DNA from: Flavobacteriales bacterium | Lineage (GTDB): Bacteria; Bacteroidota; Bacteroidia; Flavobacteriales_D; Sanyastnellaceae | DNA: 41,481 nucleotides | Assembly (NCBI GenBank): GCA_015665315.1 | Contig: JADFAK010000007.1 | Location: 1-41,481 of the forward strand | Reading direction: 5' to 3' | Part shown: positions 1,830-23,506 of the stretch, in pieces | Layout of the letters: each line of letters opens with the position of its first letter | Position numbering within the stretch: the first letter of the stretch is position 1 | The notes under the pieces: model-generated | Seen by the model: only the letters and a program-made list of their open reading frames with translations | Told to the model about the DNA's origin: nothing | Databases searched by the model: none | Translations under genes and position numbers: made by a program

Positions 1830-4394
1830 ATGAAAGTCCACATTGTTGTTTTACTAACTCTTCTCTTAACTCCATTCTTCGCATTATCGCAAGGATTCAC
1901 GAATGCGACCAATGATATAGGAGTCGATGTTTTCAACAGTTCACCCACGCTGGGGTTTGGCGTAAGTTTTTTTGATTTCGACCACGACGGGTGGGACGAC
2001 CTCTCTTTTTGCCAGGAGAATGATTCCTTGGTGTTCTATAAAAATGTGGAGGGCACATTCGTGCAAATGCCATCTCTTGCCTTCGCATCAGCCGACTCCA
2101 AGCACATCACTTGGGCCGACTACGATAACGATGGCGACTCGGATTTGTTGGTAACGCAGTATATTGGATTTACCCGACTTTATCGCAACGACGGAGATTG
2201 GAATTTTACCGATGTGAGCCTCGACGCAGGTATTCCACAGCAGTTCAATGCCAAAACTTTCGGGGTAAGCTGGGCCGACTACGATCACGATGGTTGGTTG
2301 GATGTGTATATCTGCAACTACAACTGGAACGACGGGACCAACAATTGGTGTCTGCACAACAACGGCGACGGAACGTTTACTGAAGTGGCTGCTGCATTGG
2401 GAATTGACAACGGTTCAAAGCCTTCTTATCAATCGACGTGGCTGGACTTTAACAATGATTCTTGGCCTGATTTATACGTAATCAACGACTTTTTGCCAAA
2501 AAATGCCTTGTACGAAAACAATGGCGACGGAACGTTCACCGATGTCTCTGTTGACTCAGGAACCGATCTGAACATCGAGGCAATGAGCAATGCGCCAAAC
2601 GACTATGACAATGATGGTGACTTGGACATTTATATCACGAACAATACGGCAGGAAATTACCTCCTAAAAAACCAAGGAAATGGCATGTTTACCAACGAGG
2701 CTGTAGCCTTGGGCATAACCATCAACGACCTGTGCTGGGGAAGTCTGTGGATAGATTACGACAACGATGGTTGGGATGATTTATACGTAGCAACTTCCTT
2801 CGGATCCGACAACTACTTGAATCATTTCTTCACAAATGATGAAGGGGTCTTTACCTCCAACGATGCCCTTGTAAGTGCCGCCGATCAGGCGATTAGCTTC
2901 TCCAACGCCAAGGGAGACTTCAACAACGACGGATTTTACGACATCGTTCAAACAAATTCCTCTAGTCAGCACTCCTTCGTCTATGAAAATCAGACTAGCG
3001 GCAACAATTACGTCAAAGTAAACTTAGAAGGCACTACGTCGAACAAAGATGCCGTAGGTACTTGGCTGGATACTTATATCGGTGGTCAAAAATTTGTGGA
3101 GTACACCCATCTCGGACAAAACTTCCTAGGTCAAAACTCTCAACATTTGATCTTACCACTCGGACAAGCCGGCCAAGTCGACTCCCTGTTTATCAAGTGG
3201 CCAAATGGATTGATCGAAACCTACTACGATATTTCGGCTGGAAATACCTACGACTATGTAGAAGGATCTACTGTTGTTATCGCCACCTTGATCGATGGCC
3301 CAAGTGCTATTTGTTCGAACGAAACCACCAGCTTGTCGGTTGACGGACAATTCGTCACTGTCGAGTGGAGTTCTGGTGATTTTGGCAACACCTTGATCGT
3401 CGATGAACCAGGTACTTATTACGCTACAGTTACAGATTCGAACGGTTATGCTTTCATAACTGAGAGCGTCGAAATTGAAGTATTGCAGGCCGCAGCGCCT
3501 ACCATAGAGGTAGTGGAGAATAACTGCTTTGGCGAAATGAACGCTTCGATAAATTTGACTACCACTGACATTGACATCGTCGAGATCTTGTGGGAAAGTG
3601 GGCAAGACTCTACTTTTATTGACGAGCTTGCAAGCGGGTGGTATACCTACTCTTTCGTTGATGAGAACTCATGCACACTTTCTGATTCTATCGAAATCAT
3701 TGACCCCTTGGTTATCGAATTTTCTTGGACAACGGTAGCTCCAACGTGCAACGGATACACCGATGGATCAATCGAGCTTACAGCCCAAGGCGGCACAGGA
3801 GAATTGGACTATGATCTCAACGGAATCACTTGGAATGAGGTGGGCGCAGGAATCTACCCAGGAAGCATTACCGACGAGAATGGTTGCGAAGTTTCACTTG
3901 AAATCGAAGTCAGCGAACCCGACGAACTCACATCTTCAAGTACGGTAGAAGGATCGCTGGACGAAGATGGATCTATCGTGTTGCAAATCGACGGAGGTAC
4001 CGAGCCGTATTCAATTCTGTGGAATACTGGCGATACCGACCTAGAAACCCTCACCGATCTACCGGCGGGGACCTATTCGGCATGGATAATCGATGCGCAT
4101 GGCTGCACCCTTTTCACTGAAATAGTCGTCCCACAAATTGTCGCGATTGAGGAAGAGGCGTTTACCGATTTCGTTCTTTATCCCAATCCGGCCAGCAGTC
4201 AGTTTACTATTGAATTTTCTAGTCTGCAATCAGGTCTTTTAAAATTGATTGATGCACAAGGCAAATGCGTAAAAACACACGCTACCTCTGGCACTTCGAT
4301 CATAAGCATTGACGGTATGGCAGCCGGTTTGTATACAGTTACTTGGACAAGTTACCAGGGAGCATGGTTTGCAAAACAACTGTTGATCAAATAA
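1830..4394 (+). CDS. Secreted FG-GAP / ASPIC-UnbV protein with SprB-like repeats and T9SS sorting domain, 854 aa
   Basis: A large secreted or cell-surface protein. Residues 1-20 form a signal peptide ending FALSQ. From about residue 49 to 375 there are seven calcium-loop repeats of the type DxDxDGxxDLyv (for example DFDHDGWDDL, DYDNDGDSDL, DYDHDGWLDV), typical of FG-GAP/VCBS beta-propellers. An ASPIC-UnbV domain follows at about 390-475 (SNKDAVGTW, then LFIKWPNG). Residues 485-775 hold Ig-like/SprB-like repeats (CFGEMNASI, CNGYTDGSIELTAQGG). Residues 780-854 are a T9SS type A sorting domain (FVLYPNPAS, ending KQLLIK). Export would be by Sec and then the type IX system. The ligand or role is unknown. 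It is paralogous to the gene at 7067 with the same domain order. The penicillin-acylase gene follows after 22 bases. Confidence 0.9.
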   Translation: MKVHIVVLLTLLLTPFFALSQGFTNATNDIGVDVFNSSPTLGFGVSFFDFDHDGWDDLSFCQENDSLVFYKNVEGTFVQMPSLAFASADSKHITWADYDNDGDSDLLVTQYIGFTRLYRNDGDWNFTDVSLDAGIPQQFNAKTFGVSWADYDHDGWLDVYICNYNWNDGTNNWCLHNNGDGTFTEVAAALGIDNGSKPSYQSTWLDFNNDSWPDLYVINDFLPKNALYENNGDGTFTDVSVDSGTDLNIEAMSNAPNDYDNDGDLDIYITNNTAGNYLLKNQGNGMFTNEAVALGITINDLCWGSLWIDYDNDGWDDLYVATSFGSDNYLNHFFTNDEGVFTSNDALVSAADQAISFSNAKGDFNNDGFYDIVQTNSSSQHSFVYENQTSGNNYVKVNLEGTTSNKDAVGTWLDTYIGGQKFVEYTHLGQNFLGQNSQHLILPLGQAGQVDSLFIKWPNGLIETYYDISAGNTYDYVEGSTVVIATLIDGPSAICSNETTSLSVDGQFVTVEWSSGDFGNTLIVDEPGTYYATVTDSNGYAFITESVEIEVLQAAAPTIEVVENNCFGEMNASINLTTTDIDIVEILWESGQDSTFIDELASGWYTYSFVDENSCTLSDSIEIIDPLVIEFSWTTVAPTCNGYTDGSIELTAQGGTGELDYDLNGITWNEVGAGIYPGSITDENGCEVSLEIEVSEPDELTSSSTVEGSLDEDGSIVLQIDGGTEPYSILWNTGDTDLETLTDLPAGTYSAWIIDAHGCTLFTEIVVPQIVAIEEEAFTDFVLYPNPASSQFTIEFSSLQSGLLKLIDAQGKCVKTHATSGTSIISIDGMAAGLYTVTWTSYQGAWFAKQLLIK

Positions 4395-4416
4395 GTCTGC
4401 CTTCAATAAAAAGAAC

Positions 4417-6813
4417 ATGAAGAAGTGGTTCATCCTTCTTGTCACATTATTCGTTCTGCTTGCTTTGGGTGGGTATCTCTATTACGGATCACTGTCACCG
4501 AAATACAAAGGTGACTTAGCCCTTGAAGGACTTTCGGAAGAAGTAATAGTCCACTTCGATGATTATGGTATCCCACACATCCAAGCATCGAACAAGGCCG
4601 ACCTATACTTGAGTTTGGGGCATACGATTGCGAGCGAACGACTCTTTCAAATGGAAATGATGAGGCGAGTTGGTCACGGAGAATTGTCTGAAATCCTAGG
4701 AAGTGATTTTATCAGCACCGACGCCCTATTCCGATCACTTTTTCCTGACTCCTATTTTAAAGCGCAATGCGAGAGCCTTGAACATGAAGAAAACGCTGAG
4801 ATGCTCAGTGAAATTGAAGCCTACCTAACTGGAGTAAATCAATTCATCGAAAACGGCTCCACTCCGCTAGAGTTCACCTTACTTGGAATCGAGAAGAGAC
4901 CTTTTGAAAAGTCCGATTTATTTGCCATTGCCGGCTACATGGCCTACAGTTTTGGTCTCGGTCAGCGTACCGACCCACTAGTCACCTACATCCAAGAAGA
5001 ATTGGGAAGTGAATATTTACTGGGGCTTGCTCTGTTCCATGAAACTGGAGCCGATTACATTCCTGGCTTTGGGGAGAGTCAGCTCTCATCGGAAATGAGC
5101 AAACAATTATTCGGCATGTCCAATCAACATTTCCCCGTTCCGCTTTGGGAAGGCAGCAACAGCTGGGTTGTTTCGGGCGAGCTTACTGAAAGTGGAAAAC
5201 CGGTTTTCTGCAACGACACGCATATTGCTTACAGCATCCCTCAAGTATGGTACGAAGCGCATTTGACCAGTCCAGGTTTTAATTTTTACGGCTACTTCCT
5301 AGGAGGAATTCCATACGCATTGGTAGGTCACAATGACGCCATGGCGTGGGGACTTACAATGCTTGAACAGGACGACATGGACTTTTACCATGAAGAGGTT
5401 AATTTCAAGAAAGGAACTTATGTTGTAGACGGGACCGAAAAGAAACTTGAGCGCCAAGAATTTCTCCTTCCCGTGAAAGACTGCGGAGATACCGTTATCT
5501 CTGCCAGTTACACCAAGCATGGACCATTGGTAAGTGCGTTTTACGACCAGATTGATAGCGATCTAAACGTGAGTTTGTGGTGGGATTATATTCGAACTGA
5601 GAACAGACTATTACAAGCTTTCCGCCAATTGAACAATTGTCAAAACCTTGAAGAAGCTGAATTCGCCTGTTCACAAATCCACGGTCCTGGTCTGAATGTT
5701 ACCTACGCCGACACAGCCAACAACATAGCGTGGTGGGCTTGTGCTAAAATTCAGCACCGACCAAGCCATGTGAACAGTAAGTGTTTTATTGATGGAAGCA
5801 AGTCTGAAAACGATCCCTTTGGCTACTATGATTTTAGCCTAAACCCTCGGATAGTGAACCCATCGTCGAACTGGGTTAGTACAGCAAACAATGAGCCTCC
5901 GCCCATCGACAGTGTTTACATACCTGGCTATTATAAGCCAAACCATCGAGCAGACCGTATCGAGCACTGGCTCAACAGTCCCATCAATTGGTCTGTTGAA
6001 ACCATGAAACAGGTGATGATAGATGTGCAGTCGGACATAGATGGCGACTTGGCCAAAGAGTTAAAATCAATTTTGGAGAAACAGGAACTATCGGCTGAAC
6101 TGGCTCCCTATCTCACGCTTTTGGATTGGAACGGTCGGCACGAAACAGAAGATCCATCTCCAGTCTTATATTACAGATTCCTCTACAATGTCTTGGAAAG
6201 CGCAATGTTGGACGAATTGGGAAAAGAAAGGTTTGATAATTTCCTGACCACGCATTGGTTTAGGCGCAGCTATCCTGTTTTATTGCGAGATCCATCATCG
6301 GTATGGTGGGACAACTCGGCAACATCAATCACAGAAAGCCGTGATCAATTATTGCTTGAAGCATTTAAAACCTCGATCAACGAATTGCTGGTAGAAAATG
6401 GCTCCATGGAAACATGGGAATGGGGTAAAAACCATTCGCTTACACTTGAACATCCGTTTGCCAAAGAATCTGACCTTTTGGCCTCACTATTGAATATTGG
6501 TCCGCATCCAATCCGAGGAGGCTATGAAACCATCAATCAGGCTTCATTTAAATTGGAGAAGACCACGAACTACAAAGTACTAGTGGGTTCGCAGATGCGA
6601 ATAATCCTAGATATGGGTTATATGAAAGATGGGATCTCTATTGCTCCCTCCGGTCAATCTGGACACCGTTCAAGCAAGCACTACAAAGATCAAAGTGAAC
6701 TCTATCGACAGGGACAATTCAGACCACAATTGTGGGATCAAAAGCAAGTAAGTCAATTGAAAAACAAACTAAGCCTCAGACCGCAAAATTCTGATAGTCA
6801 GGAGGTAAAATAG
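4417..6813 (+). CDS. Penicillin acylase family (Ntn-hydrolase) protein, 798 aa
   Basis: A member of the penicillin amidase/acyl-homoserine-lactone acylase family, which cleaves amide bonds in acylated small molecules. Residues 5-23 form one hydrophobic segment without an obvious cleavage site, so it is probably an anchored periplasmic enzyme. The early motif VHFDDYGIPHI is the family's N-terminal signature. The autoproteolysis and nucleophile site is Gly246-Ser247-Asn248 (EGSNSW), which would give an alpha chain of about 220 residues and a beta chain of about 550. The later STANNEP carries a candidate oxyanion Asn. The length fits the family. It lies 22 bases after one FG-GAP protein gene and about 250 bases before its paralog. 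The substrate cannot be inferred: N-acyl amino acids, acyl-homoserine lactones or peptides are all possible. Confidence 0.9.
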   Translation: MKKWFILLVTLFVLLALGGYLYYGSLSPKYKGDLALEGLSEEVIVHFDDYGIPHIQASNKADLYLSLGHTIASERLFQMEMMRRVGHGELSEILGSDFISTDALFRSLFPDSYFKAQCESLEHEENAEMLSEIEAYLTGVNQFIENGSTPLEFTLLGIEKRPFEKSDLFAIAGYMAYSFGLGQRTDPLVTYIQEELGSEYLLGLALFHETGADYIPGFGESQLSSEMSKQLFGMSNQHFPVPLWEGSNSWVVSGELTESGKPVFCNDTHIAYSIPQVWYEAHLTSPGFNFYGYFLGGIPYALVGHNDAMAWGLTMLEQDDMDFYHEEVNFKKGTYVVDGTEKKLERQEFLLPVKDCGDTVISASYTKHGPLVSAFYDQIDSDLNVSLWWDYIRTENRLLQAFRQLNNCQNLEEAEFACSQIHGPGLNVTYADTANNIAWWACAKIQHRPSHVNSKCFIDGSKSENDPFGYYDFSLNPRIVNPSSNWVSTANNEPPPIDSVYIPGYYKPNHRADRIEHWLNSPINWSVETMKQVMIDVQSDIDGDLAKELKSILEKQELSAELAPYLTLLDWNGRHETEDPSPVLYYRFLYNVLESAMLDELGKERFDNFLTTHWFRRSYPVLLRDPSSVWWDNSATSITESRDQLLLEAFKTSINELLVENGSMETWEWGKNHSLTLEHPFAKESDLLASLLNIGPHPIRGGYETINQASFKLEKTTNYKVLVGSQMRIILDMGYMKDGISIAPSGQSGHRSSKHYKDQSELYRQGQFRPQLWDQKQVSQLKNKLSLRPQNSDSQEVK

Positions 6814-6960
6814 TCTTCCAAATGATATTGAGTCAGTTTTATGCGCTTAGCAGAAAAATAATTCAAAAATTTATCTGTAAAACAGACAACCCTTCAAGTA
6901 GGTTTCCGTCTTATAATTGGTAATCCTTAACCAAAACTAACTTATTGTTCTTTGAAGCAT

Positions 6961-6992
6961 GGGCATAATCTGCATAACTACAGATTATGCCC
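6961..6992. repeat. Perfect 12-bp inverted repeat, 8-base loop
   Basis: gggcataatctg at 6961-6972 is mirrored exactly by cagattatgccc at 6981-6992. It lies between the acylase gene and the promoter of the next gene. There is no T run on either side, so it is not a standard terminator. It could be an operator or an RNA stem. Confidence 0.7.
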
Positions 6993-7024
6993 TACTTCAG
7001 TTCAACTAGGATCGTTTTAGAACA

Positions 7025-7032
7025 TATATTTG
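7025..7032 (+). promoter_or_regulatory. Bacteroidota -7 box TATATTTG
   Basis: An exact match to TAnnTTTG, 34 bases before the ATG at 7067 and followed by C, as in other promoters here. I see no clear -33 TTG. It supports separate transcription of the second FG-GAP gene from the acylase. Confidence 0.6.
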
Positions 7033-7066
7033 CACTCGTACTTTGGCCGGACTTAAACTGCGTTTC

Positions 7067-9652
7067 ATGAGAACAATCTTAACATCCATTATTTTGCTTT
7101 GTTGCACCATGTGGGCTACAGGACAAGGATTTCAAAACGTCACAAGTTCTCAAAACATCGACGTGTACATTGAAGGAAGTGTCTTTGGCAGTGGCTTGAG
7201 CTTTGCCGACTTCAACAATGATGGTTGGGATGATTTGACATTCGCCAACAACGATTTAGATCCTTCCTTTTATATTAACAACGAAGGGATCTATTCGCCC
7301 ATCGATTTAGGAATCGAAAACACGTATGAGGGAGACATAAAGGCTATACTCTGGGTTGACTACGATAACGATGGAGATAAAGACCTCTTTGTTTCAACAA
7401 GCTTCCATCCACTTCAACTGTACAACAATGACGGGTTCATGAATTTCACCGATGTAGCGGCCGAGGCCGGACTATTGGCAGAAAACACGCGAAATTTTGG
7501 AGCTAGTTGGGGAGATTACAACAAGGATGGTTGGCTCGATCTTTATGTATGTAAGTACCACAATCCCGATTTGAATAGTGGCTATGCTTACGAGAATCAC
7601 CTGTACAGAAGCAATCAAGACGGAACGTTTACTGAAGTTGCAAACTATGCGGGTGTAGGCAACGGAGTTTCGGCATCCTTCCAATCGATATTCTTTGATT
7701 ATGACAAAGATGGTTGGGACGACATCTATGTTATCAACGACCGCTATGTATATTCCAACGCTCTTTTTCACAATAACGGCGATGGCACTTTTGAAGATGT
7801 TTCGGTGCCTTCTGGTACTGGAATTAACATGGATCCCATGTGTATTGCTCTAGGTGACTACGACAATGATGAGGATCTAGATATTTACATGTCAAACACG
7901 GTAGAAGGCAATGAACTTTTACAAAATCAAGGCGATGGCACCTTTTTAGGGATAGGAGTCGAGGCCGGTGTGGCCGTCTATGAAATTTGTTGGGGGTCAA
8001 TTTGGATTGACTACGACAACAATATGCTTCAAGATTTGTATGTAGGCACGATCGATAACGTGGGAACCATTGAGCTGTACAATAGGTTTTACGAGAATAC
8101 TGGCGACGGATTTGTGGAAGCAACCGATGAGGTTTCACTGTCAAACGATTTTTATGCGACCCACGCTATTACTATGGGAGACATTAACAATGATGGATTT
8201 CCCGATTTTGTCCAGAGCAATTGCGCACCCTCTTATTGCCAGCTTTACCAAAATAGCGGTGGCACCAATAACTGGCTTAAAGTTTCAGTAGAAGGAGTCA
8301 TAAGTAACCGTGATGGTATTGGATGTTGGATCCAAACGTATACTGGGGATGTCGTTCAAACTAGAACTGTTAACTGCGGTGAGGAATACATGGGACAAGA
8401 CTCTCCACGAGAAATGTTTGGCCTTGGTGAGATCGAAACAGTCGATTCCTTAATAATCAGGTGGCCCAGCGGAATCACCGATATCTATCGTGACCTAGCT
8501 AGCAATCAAACCCTGCATGTTATTGAAGGAGGCTCTGTTATTGTTCCAATCCATCACGAAGATGAACTAGCTATATGCGGACAAGATTCGGTATTGCTAA
8601 CAGTTGAACAAAGCGCAGTCTCATACAATTGGTCAAATGGCGAAGACACACAATCTATTTACGTTTCAACATCTGGTGAGTATTATTGTGACATTACTTC
8701 CGATCTAGGTCTGGTCTACCCTAGCGACACATTAACAGTGACTGCTTCTCCCGAATTAATATTAGATCTTTTTACCCAAAATGTGCCATGCTACGGGGAT
8801 TCTACTGGAATTGGTCTGGTTACTGTTGCAAGCCAAGCTCAACTCACTTCCATTGACTGGGTTGATGACCTTACAGGGTTTTCGCAAACCAGCCTTCCGG
8901 CCGGCACCTATTGGTTCACCGCAGGTGATGCGAATAACTGTTTCCAAACAGATTCTATTACAATTACACAACCTGATTCTCTAGCAATCACAGCTCAGAC
9001 AACGGACGTGTTATGTTTCGGAGAAGCCACAGGTGAGGTAAGTCTCTCATGGACGGGAGGCACGGGCATATTAAATTGCTTCACCGACGATCTAAATGAA
9101 GATGAATTGTTTGCCGGAATTTATTCATGGGAATGCACCGATCAGAATAACTGCGAAGCCCACGTTGATTTTGAGATTATTCAACCTGATGAGTTGAATG
9201 TCGAGCTGACTGCAAATGATATCAGCGGTGGAAATTCGGGTGGAGCCCAAATTGACATTTCCGGTGGCACGCCAGAATACACAATCGAATGGAGTACAGG
9301 TGAAGACGGCCTTGAAATTGACATTGAGGAAATTGGTGATTTTTGGGTGAGTGTCACCGACCAGAACGGGTGTGATACCACGCTTACTTTCATGATTACC
9401 GGCGTGCAAGAATGGATTGACGCAGATTTCTCTGTTTTCCCTAATCCTTTCAGTAATCAAATCACCTTGAACAACGAATCTACAGAGTTCTTTACAATTC
9501 AATTGTACTCACCTCTTGGCGAGCTGGTATTGGAAGAAGAGATTTCTCCAGGTAAAGAAATCCTAGAATTGGCGAATACAACCGCTGGGATATACATTCT
9601 GAGAGTCAATGGAGAAAACAAAAGTGCGGTTTTTCGACTAACCCGTCAATAA
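7067..9652 (+). CDS. Second secreted FG-GAP / ASPIC-UnbV protein with T9SS sorting domain, 861 aa
   Basis: A paralog of the 1830-4394 product with the same architecture. The frame opens at a TTG at 7043, but the ATG at 7067 gives a clean signal peptide (MRTILTSIILL..., ending ATGQ) and is chosen. About residues 45-390 hold seven FG-GAP/VCBS calcium loops. The fifth (DYDNDEDLD) and sixth (DYDNNMLQD) are degenerate, unlike those of the paralog. The ASPIC-UnbV domain follows (SNRDGIGCW, LIIRWPSG). SprB-like repeats come next (CYGDSTGIG, CFGEATGEVSLSW), then a T9SS domain from about residue 789 (FSVFPNPFS). It is predicted to be secreted or surface-attached through T9SS. Its function is unknown, and shared context suggests a role related to the first paralog. 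Confidence 0.9.
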   Translation: MRTILTSIILLCCTMWATGQGFQNVTSSQNIDVYIEGSVFGSGLSFADFNNDGWDDLTFANNDLDPSFYINNEGIYSPIDLGIENTYEGDIKAILWVDYDNDGDKDLFVSTSFHPLQLYNNDGFMNFTDVAAEAGLLAENTRNFGASWGDYNKDGWLDLYVCKYHNPDLNSGYAYENHLYRSNQDGTFTEVANYAGVGNGVSASFQSIFFDYDKDGWDDIYVINDRYVYSNALFHNNGDGTFEDVSVPSGTGINMDPMCIALGDYDNDEDLDIYMSNTVEGNELLQNQGDGTFLGIGVEAGVAVYEICWGSIWIDYDNNMLQDLYVGTIDNVGTIELYNRFYENTGDGFVEATDEVSLSNDFYATHAITMGDINNDGFPDFVQSNCAPSYCQLYQNSGGTNNWLKVSVEGVISNRDGIGCWIQTYTGDVVQTRTVNCGEEYMGQDSPREMFGLGEIETVDSLIIRWPSGITDIYRDLASNQTLHVIEGGSVIVPIHHEDELAICGQDSVLLTVEQSAVSYNWSNGEDTQSIYVSTSGEYYCDITSDLGLVYPSDTLTVTASPELILDLFTQNVPCYGDSTGIGLVTVASQAQLTSIDWVDDLTGFSQTSLPAGTYWFTAGDANNCFQTDSITITQPDSLAITAQTTDVLCFGEATGEVSLSWTGGTGILNCFTDDLNEDELFAGIYSWECTDQNNCEAHVDFEIIQPDELNVELTANDISGGNSGGAQIDISGGTPEYTIEWSTGEDGLEIDIEEIGDFWVSVTDQNGCDTTLTFMITGVQEWIDADFSVFPNPFSNQITLNNESTEFFTIQLYSPLGELVLEEEISPGKEILELANTTAGIYILRVNGENKSAVFRLTRQ

Positions 9653-9824: not shown

Positions 9825-10349
9825 ATGAGACTTTCAATTCTTCTTTTTTCGATCACCCTACTCTCTCTTAACACGCTATCATCACAAATCACAGTCGATC
9901 ATTATGAAAGACAGCCCAAAGTCAACATCGATGAACTGGACCAATTTGCGCCTGTAACAGCGAAAAGTTCTTGTGGAGAAGTTCAAGTTGAAGTGAGCGA
10001 ACAAATGTTTTCAGGTGGGTGTTTGGGCAACTTAGTGAGAACTTACGTCTTCACCGACACGTGCGGCAACAAGGAACGCGCCGAACAGTACATAGTGCTT
10101 CAAGACAAGGTTGCTCCCACATTTCTCAATGCACCTAAAGATGTTTTAGCATACGCAAATGCTATTCCTGAGCTAGAGGAGATCAAAGCCGTAGACAATA
10201 GCGATGGTGAAATCAAGATTGATTTTACTGAGAAGATTGGTGAAGGCCAAATAGTTCGAAACTGGGTGGCAACTGACCAATGTGGCAATCAACATTCCCA
10301 TACTCAACTCATAACTATTCAGGACACTCAGGCCTCAACAGCTAACTAG
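9825..10349 (+). CDS. Small secreted protein with HYR-like repeats, 174 aa
   Basis: Residues 1-21 look like a signal peptide (MRLSILLFSITLLSLNTLSS). The mature part holds two tandem units with the pattern V-x-x-T-D-x-CGN followed by a closing ITIQD or IVLQD: one ends FTDTCGNKERAEQYIVLQD, and the second runs from KVAPTF to VATDQCGN. This resembles the HYR-type beta-sandwich modules common in long Bacteroidota surface proteins. Paired cysteines in each unit suggest disulphides. There is no T9SS sorting domain and no lipobox, so the protein may be periplasmic. I do not recognise a specific function. A looser copy of the 17-base motif lies at 9796-9812 in the likely promoter. Confidence 0.75.
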   Translation: MRLSILLFSITLLSLNTLSSQITVDHYERQPKVNIDELDQFAPVTAKSSCGEVQVEVSEQMFSGGCLGNLVRTYVFTDTCGNKERAEQYIVLQDKVAPTFLNAPKDVLAYANAIPELEEIKAVDNSDGEIKIDFTEKIGEGQIVRNWVATDQCGNQHSHTQLITIQDTQASTAN

Positions 10350-20941: not shown

Positions 20942-23506
20942 ATGACTAAAAAGCAAGTAAGTTTGTTTGTCGCACTCATTTTATCGAGTGTTTTATTAAC
21001 TCCCAATCAAGCTCTGGCCCAGAGAAAAGGTAAAAAAGACAAGGGCAAAACCGAAGAAAAAAAAGAAACTGATTTTTTGAAAACGGTCAAGTCATGCGCA
21101 AAACATGATGGGCTTTTTGTCTTGTTTCAAGATACCTTGAATGGAAAAGTCTACCTTGAGATCAATGAAGATCAATTGGGTAAAGAATACATCTACTTTA
21201 GCCATGTTGAAGATGGTGTTCTAGATGCAGGTTTCTTTCGGGGTGCTTTTCGATCATCTAAAATCATCTCCTTTAGAAAAATATTCGATCATATTGAAGT
21301 TATTCAGCATAATACGGACTTCTATTTCGACGAGGGAAATGCCCTGAGTAAGTCGGCAAGTGCCAATATCAACAACCCGGTTCTAATCAGCCAGAAAATC
21401 GAATCTCAAAGCGAAGATGGCACTCGTTTTCTGATAGATGGGAACTCGCTATTTCTCAGCGAGCAATTTCAAATGGTGAAACCACCTTCCGATCCAAAAA
21501 ACCCATCGCTTCTGGGCAATCTAAGCAAGGAAAAATCTAAAGTCCGTAAAATCAATAACTACCCAGAAAATTCTGAAATACGCGTTGAATATGTGTATGA
21601 AAATAAGAATCCGAAACGTGGAGGATCTTCCGCAGTTACTGATGTCAGAAATATATCGGTAGTCTATCAGCATAGTTTGCTTGCCATTCCTGAAAACAAT
21701 TATTCACCTAGGCGAGACGACTCTAGACTTGGCTTTTTCATGACCAAAGTAAACGATATGACCTCATTTTCAGCCACTCCTTACAAAGATGTAATTCACA
21801 GGTGGAACCTTGAGAAAGCCGATCCAAATGCCCCAATTTCGGATCCAGTAAAACCAATTACCTATTGGATTGAAAACACTACTCCAGTGGAATTTAGATC
21901 AATAATCAAGGAAGGGGTTGAGCGATGGAATTTGGCATTCGAAAAAGCGGGATTCTCTAATGCTATCGTTGTGAACATACAACCTGATGACGCTGAATGG
22001 GATGCTGGAGACATACGATATAATGTCATCCGATGGACCTCTTCCCCGCGTCCTCCTTTTGGTGGATATGGCCCAAGCTTTGTGAATCCGAGAACTGGGG
22101 AAATATTAGGAGCCGACATAATGCTTGAATTCGTGAGTATTACAAACCGCCTTTTTAGAACTGATGTGTTTGAGCTAGCAGGAACTCAGAGCGATGAAGA
22201 CTATTCAACTGATGCCCGACTAGACTTGCATACTTGTACTGCAAGTCAACATTTACACCACAATATGGTGTTCGGTTTGCAAGCGATGAAAACTATGAAT
22301 TTTGACAAGGCTGCTGAAGAGGAATTTGTCAAACAAACCCTGTATCGCCTAGTTCTACACGAAGTTGGTCACACTTTAGGTCTGAGTCACAACATGCGCG
22401 GGTCAACGATGCTTTCTCCCGAGGAGATAAAGAATAAAGAATTGGTAGATGAAATCGGGCTTTGCAATTCCGTAATGGAATACCCTTCGATTAATTACGC
22501 TAGAAACAAAGAAGAACAAACTCTGTACTATGACGTGAAACCAGGTTTGTATGACCATTGGATTATTGAATACGGTTATTCCCCACATGCAAAGGATGCT
22601 GTTCAAGAAGAAACTCGATTGAACGACATCCTTTCTCGATCGACTGACCCAAGGCTTGCCTTTGGCAATGATGCAGATGACATGCGATCATCGGGCAAGG
22701 GAATCAATCCAGACGTAAATATCTACGACCTTTCAAATGATCCAGTAGCGTACGCCATAGAACGCTGTGAATTGGTAAATGATATCCTTCCAAAAATTAA
22801 AGACTCATTCATCACTGAAGGCCAATCTTATCACGAACTAAGAAATGCCTTCTTCATTCTTACGGGTGAATATGGCACTCAAATTCGGATTATGACAAGG
22901 CAAATCGGCGGAGTTAAGTTTGACCGTTCGTACGTAGATCAAAACAGTGACAAACTTCCGCTTGCTCCTGTAAGTGAGGCCGACCAAAGAAAGGCCATGG
23001 AGGCGCTTGAGAAATATGCATTTTCCAAAGACGCCTTCAATGCGCCAGAAGGGCTTTATAACTACTTGTACGGACAACGTAGAGGTTTCGATCATTTCAG
23101 CCGCAGTGAAGACCCTAAACTACATGATCGTGTTTTGAGAATGCAAAGCGAATGCCTGAATCACCTCCTACATGAAAACGTTCTCAAACGCATGACAGAT
23201 AGTGAGCTATATGGAAATAACTACACGTTGGCGGAGTATATGGGTGATTTAACGGATGCTATTTTCAAAGCCGACTTAAATAGTTCTGTGAATACATATC
23301 GACAAAACCTCCAAATAGACTACGTCCAAAGGCTAGTAAAGGTGGGTGATGAAAAATCCAAATATGACAGAATCTCTAAAAGCATGGCTCTGTATGAGTT
23401 AAATAGACTGGAAAAATTGATGAAAACATACAGTGGGAAAGACATAACTACCAAAGCACACCGACTGCATATTCTTAAACTAATCAACCAGTCCAAAGAA
23501 CAATAG
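20942..23506 (+). CDS. Secreted zinc-dependent metalloprotease (DUF5117/DUF4953 type), 854 aa
   Basis: The signal peptide ends ALAQ at about residue 27 and is followed by a Lys/Glu-rich linker. The region around residues 50-190 matches the DUF5118/DUF5117 entry of this Bacteroidota family (DGLFVLFQDTLNGKVYLEI). The catalytic zinc motif HEVGHTLGLSH has His473, Glu474, His477 and His483, with a likely Met-turn at NSVMEYPS. This is the extended metzincin pattern. The rest forms the C-terminal DUF4953-like part. There is no T9SS sorting domain and no lipobox, so it is probably periplasmic or released. Its natural substrate is unknown. It is transcribed alone, with the lipoprotein gene 98 bases downstream. 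Confidence 0.92.
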   Translation: MTKKQVSLFVALILSSVLLTPNQALAQRKGKKDKGKTEEKKETDFLKTVKSCAKHDGLFVLFQDTLNGKVYLEINEDQLGKEYIYFSHVEDGVLDAGFFRGAFRSSKIISFRKIFDHIEVIQHNTDFYFDEGNALSKSASANINNPVLISQKIESQSEDGTRFLIDGNSLFLSEQFQMVKPPSDPKNPSLLGNLSKEKSKVRKINNYPENSEIRVEYVYENKNPKRGGSSAVTDVRNISVVYQHSLLAIPENNYSPRRDDSRLGFFMTKVNDMTSFSATPYKDVIHRWNLEKADPNAPISDPVKPITYWIENTTPVEFRSIIKEGVERWNLAFEKAGFSNAIVVNIQPDDAEWDAGDIRYNVIRWTSSPRPPFGGYGPSFVNPRTGEILGADIMLEFVSITNRLFRTDVFELAGTQSDEDYSTDARLDLHTCTASQHLHHNMVFGLQAMKTMNFDKAAEEEFVKQTLYRLVLHEVGHTLGLSHNMRGSTMLSPEEIKNKELVDEIGLCNSVMEYPSINYARNKEEQTLYYDVKPGLYDHWIIEYGYSPHAKDAVQEETRLNDILSRSTDPRLAFGNDADDMRSSGKGINPDVNIYDLSNDPVAYAIERCELVNDILPKIKDSFITEGQSYHELRNAFFILTGEYGTQIRIMTRQIGGVKFDRSYVDQNSDKLPLAPVSEADQRKAMEALEKYAFSKDAFNAPEGLYNYLYGQRRGFDHFSRSEDPKLHDRVLRMQSECLNHLLHENVLKRMTDSELYGNNYTLAEYMGDLTDAIFKADLNSSVNTYRQNLQIDYVQRLVKVGDEKSKYDRISKSMALYELNRLEKLMKTYSGKDITTKAHRLHILKLINQSKEQ

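Follow-up and report, generated by a model that had tools for sequence, protein, structure and literature searches.

A penicillin amidase-family gene embedded in an array of FG-GAP/ASPIC genes is a recurrent arrangement in one bacterial family

We report a gene cluster in which an acylase gene of the penicillin amidase family (ACY) is embedded in an array of genes for CRTAC1-like FG-GAP/ASPIC proteins (FG genes), present in the window analysed here (the whole stretch of 41,481 nucleotides, contig C33 of a 4.6-Mb genome in 219 contigs) as the sandwich FG1-ACY-FG2 (Table 1). The cluster is real and recurrent in one lineage, and its members belong to known protein families; what the tie between them does is, for now, a proposal only. 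The reading we favor, to which we give a probability of about one half, is that of a lineage-conserved cluster where FG1 and ACY would be co-transcribed, FG2 would be transcribed separately, and the tie would consist in shared expression. The three genes are as the initial annotation had described them, including the short gap between the first two. The small HYR_4C protein gene that follows is also found beside the array and a large TPR gene in relative G001, is absent at the other seven linked loci searched, and is listed as context without being claimed as part of the cluster. Elsewhere in the window (20942-23506) lies a gene for a DUF4953/DUF5117 met-zincin-like protein of 854 aa.

Table 1. 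Features of the FG1-ACY-FG2 region (positions refer to the window).
Feature	Position	Strand	Description
FG1	1830-4394	+	854 aa; seven-loop FG-GAP propeller and ASPIC/UnbV, SprB-like repeats, type A T9SS sorting domain
FG1-ACY gap	4395-4416	+	22 nt from FG1 stop to ACY start
ACY	4417-6813	+	798 aa; penicillin amidase-family (MEROPS S45) Ntn amidohydrolase
Inverted repeat	6961-6992	+	perfect, 12 bp per arm with an 8-nt loop; lies between ACY and FG2 and resembles a terminator or operator
TATATTTG	7025-7032	+	Bacteroidota -7-type promoter-like word shortly before the FG2 ATG
FG2	7067-9652 (from ATG)	+	FG-GAP/ASPIC/SprB/T9SS protein; pairs with the G001 gene at L047:9527-12112; ORF as listed 7043-9652, with TTG start
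HYR_4C small protein	9825-10349	+	context

A match to ACY was detected in 42 of 60 relatives (E <= 0.001) and in 76 of the 114 genomes of the window's family (E <= 1e-60), and the flanks of ACY were examined in 65 of these 76, the window genome included, the other 11 not having been fetched. When adjoining FG genes were counted at >60 bits, FG adjoined ACY in nine of the 65 genomes (the window genome, G001, G002, G006, G012, G016, G031, G033 and G081), which span five genera (g1, g2, g6, g12 and g16). An FG gene lies directly upstream, on the same strand, in eight of the 65, at gaps of 5-22 nt (window genome 22, G001 5, G002 8, G006 9, G012 21, G016 9, G031 21 and G033 9), and directly downstream in seven, that is, in all linked genomes except G016 and G033; among these downstream genes the G002 piece ends at a contig end and the G001 copy is an interrupted gene. 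The FG-ACY-FG order, whose restriction to a single genome the initial annotation had named as the outcome that would speak against it, is present in six of the 65 genomes and in four genera. No adjoining FG gene was seen in the remaining 56, although less than 1.5 kb of sequence was available upstream in 17 and downstream in 10 of them, so that such a gene could be missed there. In G030 an FG1-group gene lies ~9 kb upstream of ACY on the same strand with other genes between, and in G005 and G082 a short ORF near ACY matches FG1 at 50 bits and was not counted. In a wider set formed by the best 80 of at least 522 ACY loci from an alignment scan (8 of the 80 with <1.5 kb upstream), FG was adjacent at three (L100, L105 and L160) and not at the other 77; because a 2-kb piece of each of the three is identical to G033, G031 and G002, respectively, these are no new cases of linkage. 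At L170 a weak FG match lies eight genes off on the opposite strand, and a single-protein scan of genome contigs confirmed no named relatives.

The FG genes are numerous in these genomes. UnbV_ASPIC is present in 52 of 60 relatives and has 15 matches in the window genome, FG1 and FG2 among them, which makes these two part of a large family, and six genes of the ~860-aa type are found there when FG1 and FG2 are included (>400 bits with either); ACY is the only Penicil_amidase match in that genome. The abundance of FG genes alone, however, fails to explain their linkage to ACY, as G037 has 14 UnbV_ASPIC matches and yet an ACY without FG neighbours. The FG-ACY order is a recurrent one, conserved in one family and built from known protein families. 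Several other neighbours of acylase genes were recorded as well. At L051 (10374-11276, in G033) and L052 (6590-7489, in G016) a ~300-aa protein, whose G033 copy has a SprB repeat according to Pfam, replaces the downstream FG after ACY; at L080 (2797-3921, in G008) a beta-lactamase-family gene (PF00144, DUF3471), cut by the contig end, immediately precedes the acylase in the same orientation; and at L059 (6476-8149) and L061 (10382-12055), both in family f2, a 557-aa protein follows the acylase with overlapping ends, its L059 copy matching the BD-FAE esterase plus a T9SS tail, a different pairing of an acylase with a secreted protein. The commonest neighbour groups of ACY among 104 deduplicated loci (27, 25, 23 and 23 loci), identified by Pfam from one member each, at L119, as DsbD-like, TilS-like, chorismate-binding and Mg-chelatase (ComM-like), were considered as conserved functional partners and were read instead as housekeeping context.

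In an FG tree of 29 rows, the FG1 group comprises the eight upstream genes, a window genome copy on contig C28 and the G030 gene, with moderate support (89/95). The FGx group (100/99) contains the first downstream genes of G006, G012, G031 and G081, the second of G012, the interrupted copy of G001 and a window genome copy on C59; an FG2-like group (97/93) is formed by genes of G006, G012, G031 and G081; and the FGy group (81/95) by genes of G006 and G031 and a window genome copy on C50. A branch separates window FG2 and the FG2-like genes of those four genomes from the rest, with support of just 54/54. Both kinds depart from the pattern at loop 5 of the propeller and, for the most part, at loop 6, which is normal in the G006 member; these departures were set aside as proof of FG2 membership in that group because they occur in others, for example both of them in the FGy gene of G006. 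The order FG1-ACY-FGx-FG2-like-FGy is found in full in G006, which has one further FG gene beyond the array, and in G031, and we read it as the ancestral one. The sandwich of the window looks like a shortened form of this longer array, relatives of the two missing kinds, FGx and FGy, being located elsewhere in the window genome. Array members are at times lost or broken: G081 has no upstream FG, FG1 of G002 carries one in-frame stop, and FGx of G001 (L047 5885-9511) is interrupted by a 311-aa ORF, possibly an IS1595-type transposase. FG partners are therefore not strictly required.

The FG-linked ACYs occupy one side of a branch in an ACY tree that left out partial or divergent sequences (8 of 31 rows, SH-aLRT 96), and do so again when G081 and nine more chosen rows are included (9 of 41, SH-aLRT 93). 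Because they group together, the nine cases are not independent events, and we infer from this tree that the linkage arose once. The genes that surround the cluster served as the control. In the window it is flanked by hutH and by small TPR, HYR and large TPR genes, and the last three are also beside it in G001, where 82 nt separate the hutH match from its contig end and the contig that carries the cluster begins with the small TPR gene; since both sit at contig ends, hutH may be next to the cluster there too, and an earlier reading that placed it away from the cluster was dropped. None of the four was found in the fetched flanks of the seven linked genomes outside the genus (~6-9 kb per side, partly taken up by the array, and just 0.5 kb downstream in G002). 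Orthologs of large TPR and hutH are nonetheless present in all eight linked relatives: they lie 0.93 Mb and 0.27 Mb, respectively, from ACY in G012, 0.76 Mb and 0.71 Mb in G081, and on contigs other than that of ACY in the other five linked genomes outside the genus. The FG-ACY block thus appears to have outlasted its surroundings. In G033 (C2 48364-63584) and G016 (C123 5085-20643), a single contig carries the orthologs of hutH and large TPR at a distance of ~11-12 kb, in a relative orientation unlike that of the window, with ACY on another contig; in the window's genus, the cluster may have been inserted between these two genes.

It is quite possible, if not our first choice, that an FG array simply grew around a pre-existing ACY, with the short gaps and the retention of the order reflecting a compact array moving as a block, and no function in common. 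ACY is widespread without FG (in Allomuricauda, at L119, it sits between DsbD/TilS-like and Mg-chelatase genes), G081 keeps ACY with no FG upstream of it, and FG members are broken or elsewhere in several genomes. Such a history would less readily account for an FG1-ACY spacing that stays so narrow in eight genomes even though the other ACYs are just ~40-53% identical to that of the window, nor for the absence of the other window neighbours from the fetched flanks outside the genus. The loci without an adjacent FG, in both the family genomes and the best 80 of the wider set, in turn count against the reading based on shared expression.

The same spacing bears on transcription. With the two genes on the same strand and so close together in all eight genomes, FG1 and ACY are probably one operon. 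The initial annotation had treated all three genes as one unit, a view that fits poorly with the strong hairpin between ACY and FG2, genes separated by 229 nt from the ACY stop to the FG2 ORF and by 253 nt to its ATG. The stretch that includes the inverted repeat (6940-7010) folds at -26.8 kcal/mol (z -6.6, with 0 of 200 shuffles as low), and no T run follows the repeat. Together with TATATTTG, a promoter-like word of the Bacteroidota -7 type, the hairpin makes it probable that FG2 has its own transcription start in the window. The TANNTTTG motif, which occurs at <=70 nt upstream of 5 of 15 hand-picked starts, was rejected as proof of promoters, as it is not enriched in the window (29 occurrences versus a mean of 33.4 on shuffling) and only its position is suggestive. 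In the six other genomes concerned, the gap from ACY to the downstream FG is shorter than that of the window (38-122 nt), and transcription of that gene may therefore differ there.

Both FG proteins score above the Pfam curated cut-offs for FG-GAP_3, FG-GAP, UnbV_ASPIC, SprB and Por_Secre_tail. The domain order reported as identical in the two holds in this respect but not in the number of SprB stretches over threshold, two in FG1 and one in FG2. The two are ~35% identical (35-36%), and seven FG-GAP loops can be aligned in each. Measured against the pattern D.[DN].[DN]G..D, loops 5 and 6 of FG2 depart from the calcium loop, a difference between the paralogs that the initial annotation had noted, but FG1 departs likewise at loop 4, and the G001 counterpart of FG2 shares the latter's two departures. 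For propellers of this type, PMC3123361 describes a calcium blade with the pattern Dx[DN]xDG and names cartilage acidic protein. At the C-terminus, the type A T9SS sorting domain (TIGR04183/PF18962) scores 33.2 bits in FG1 and 41.6 bits in FG2 (cut-off 23), so that by sequence they are like the ordinary type A cargo of Bacteroidota, with no difference seen, and a profile search found a SprA_N match in the window genome. On contig C92 of G000, a gene for an FG-GAP/ASPIC protein of 1119 aa (L086 3461-6820) lies a few kb from the SprA_N match, which is on that contig too. An FG-GAP propeller followed by UnbV_ASPIC, our definition of a CRTAC1-like protein, is found in both FG1 and FG2. In a model of FG1 built with 7 aligned sequences (mean pLDDT 78.7, pTM 0.60), residues 22-480 superpose on murine CRTAC1 (PDB 9etn; Z 44.1, rmsd 2.3, 448 aligned, the next-best match reaching Z 32.4). 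The predicted FG1 core folds like CRTAC1 across the propeller and ASPIC region, at 19% identity, and FG1 differs by its added SprB-like repeats and T9SS tail.

ACY matches Penicil_amidase (PF01804) over nearly the whole profile (601.9 bits, cut-off 21.3, E 3e-180, profile 2-674 of 675); the scores of ACY and of the FG domains pass curated cut-offs and are far beyond chance. Residues G246, S247, H269, N491 and R511 are invariant in all 50 aligned ACY rows (49 of 77 full-length loci plus the window) and in a separate 31-row alignment, and by this alignment the catalytic residues are kept, with Ser247 as the predicted nucleophile. Roles in this family are described for beta-S1, beta-Q23, where His is possible, and beta-R263 in the available part of PMC11241749. 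With S247 taken as beta-1, H269 comes to lie at beta-23, and R511 would be the counterpart of beta-R263. N491 presumably matches the family's catalytic Asn. The ACY model (mean pLDDT 88.9) begins with a helix at residues 2-25 that contains no Cys, and its low-confidence stretch at residues 218-237 fits the spacer of the predicted alpha/beta autoproteolytic cleavage, and no more than that. No T9SS sorting domain was found in ACY (at E <= 0.001, Pfam gave only Penicil_amidase and NCBIfam only a weak PvdQ match). Taken together, these features, read from sequence and model only, make a periplasmic anchor likelier than the cell surface, and ACY is probably held by its N-terminal helix in the membrane, facing the periplasm. 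Its closest fold is that of D-succinylase from Cupriavidus (PDB 7eby/7ea4, MEROPS S45; Foldseek 7e-51; 7ea4_A Z 40.3, rmsd 2.9, 703 aligned), also the best-scoring PDB sequence, followed by cephalosporin acylases and MacQ. The GSN nucleophile site and the beta-23 His of D-succinylase align with ACY; the likeness, at ~22% identity, is one of fold and sequence, and the match starts at ACY residue 31, which leaves the N-terminal helix uncovered. PvdQ and other AHL acylases and MacQ have the same fold, PvdQ and MacQ matching by sequence as well, and ACY was rejected as a PvdQ equivalog (NF051460; 57.9 bits, cut-off 950). According to PMC5474475, the known role of PvdQ is periplasmic, and the substrate that such acylases act on in nature may be something other than AHLs. 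By analogy with D-succinylase, our best guess for the substrate of ACY is an N-acyl amino acid.

If the favored reading is correct, the FG proteins would be exported by the T9SS and displayed on the cell surface, where they would serve as binding propellers stabilised by calcium, ACY would cleave itself in the periplasm to give an alpha and a beta chain and would hydrolyse small N-acyl amides with Ser247, and the two would most likely be tied by expression in one setting, with no physical complex. A more ambitious version of this idea, which we regard as improbable, is a module spanning two compartments, in which surface propellers of varied loops would capture acylated molecules or acyl-bearing polymers, the co-expressed periplasmic ACY would deacylate them, and members gained, lost and swapped would set the range of ligands. 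Somewhat more doubtful still is the cassette originally proposed, in which acylated molecules would be bound outside the cell by the FG proteins and cut at its surface by ACY: the recurrence of the linkage and the match of the FG1 core to CRTAC1, an extracellular protein, are in its favor, but an acylase with a predicted N-terminal helix and no sorting domain, and with most of its examined relatives lacking an adjacent FG, is hard to place in it. It is very improbable that the sandwich arose when a single FG gene was recently duplicated in tandem around ACY in the window genome (the initial annotation had suggested divergence after duplication), given that FG1 and FG2 pair with different G001 genes (100/99 and 100/100, respectively), that the nearest paralog of FG1 in its own genome is on another contig, that the genes upstream of ACY in other genera group with FG1 and not FG2, and that forcing FG1, this paralog, FG2 and the two G001 partners into one clade costs 21.6 log-likelihood units, even if the AU test does not reject that clade (p 0.084). 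A common origin of FG1 and FG2 at the level of the genus is, by these trees, disfavoured and not rejected, and the two are probably old paralogs. Two very similar tandem FG-GAP/ASPIC genes with short tree branches on contig C25 of G000 (L089 5052-10723) do represent a recent duplication, unlike FG1 and FG2.

Full-text searches of open papers returned no description of the combination of FG-GAP/ASPIC and acylase genes, and the literature searched gave no ligand for FG-GAP/ASPIC proteins of this kind. FG-GAP proteins and a penicillin amidase are named as separate items in the available part of a study on Nostoc meeting rice (PMC9620832), and in the part available of PMC4324048 no mention of an acylase was found. 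The recurrent two-gene unit of FG1 and ACY offers a concrete pair to be tested together, and the FG1, FGx, FG2-like and FGy groups provide the gene sets for such testing. Even if the tie between these genes is merely historical, the cluster still shows how FG arrays grow, lose and scatter their members.
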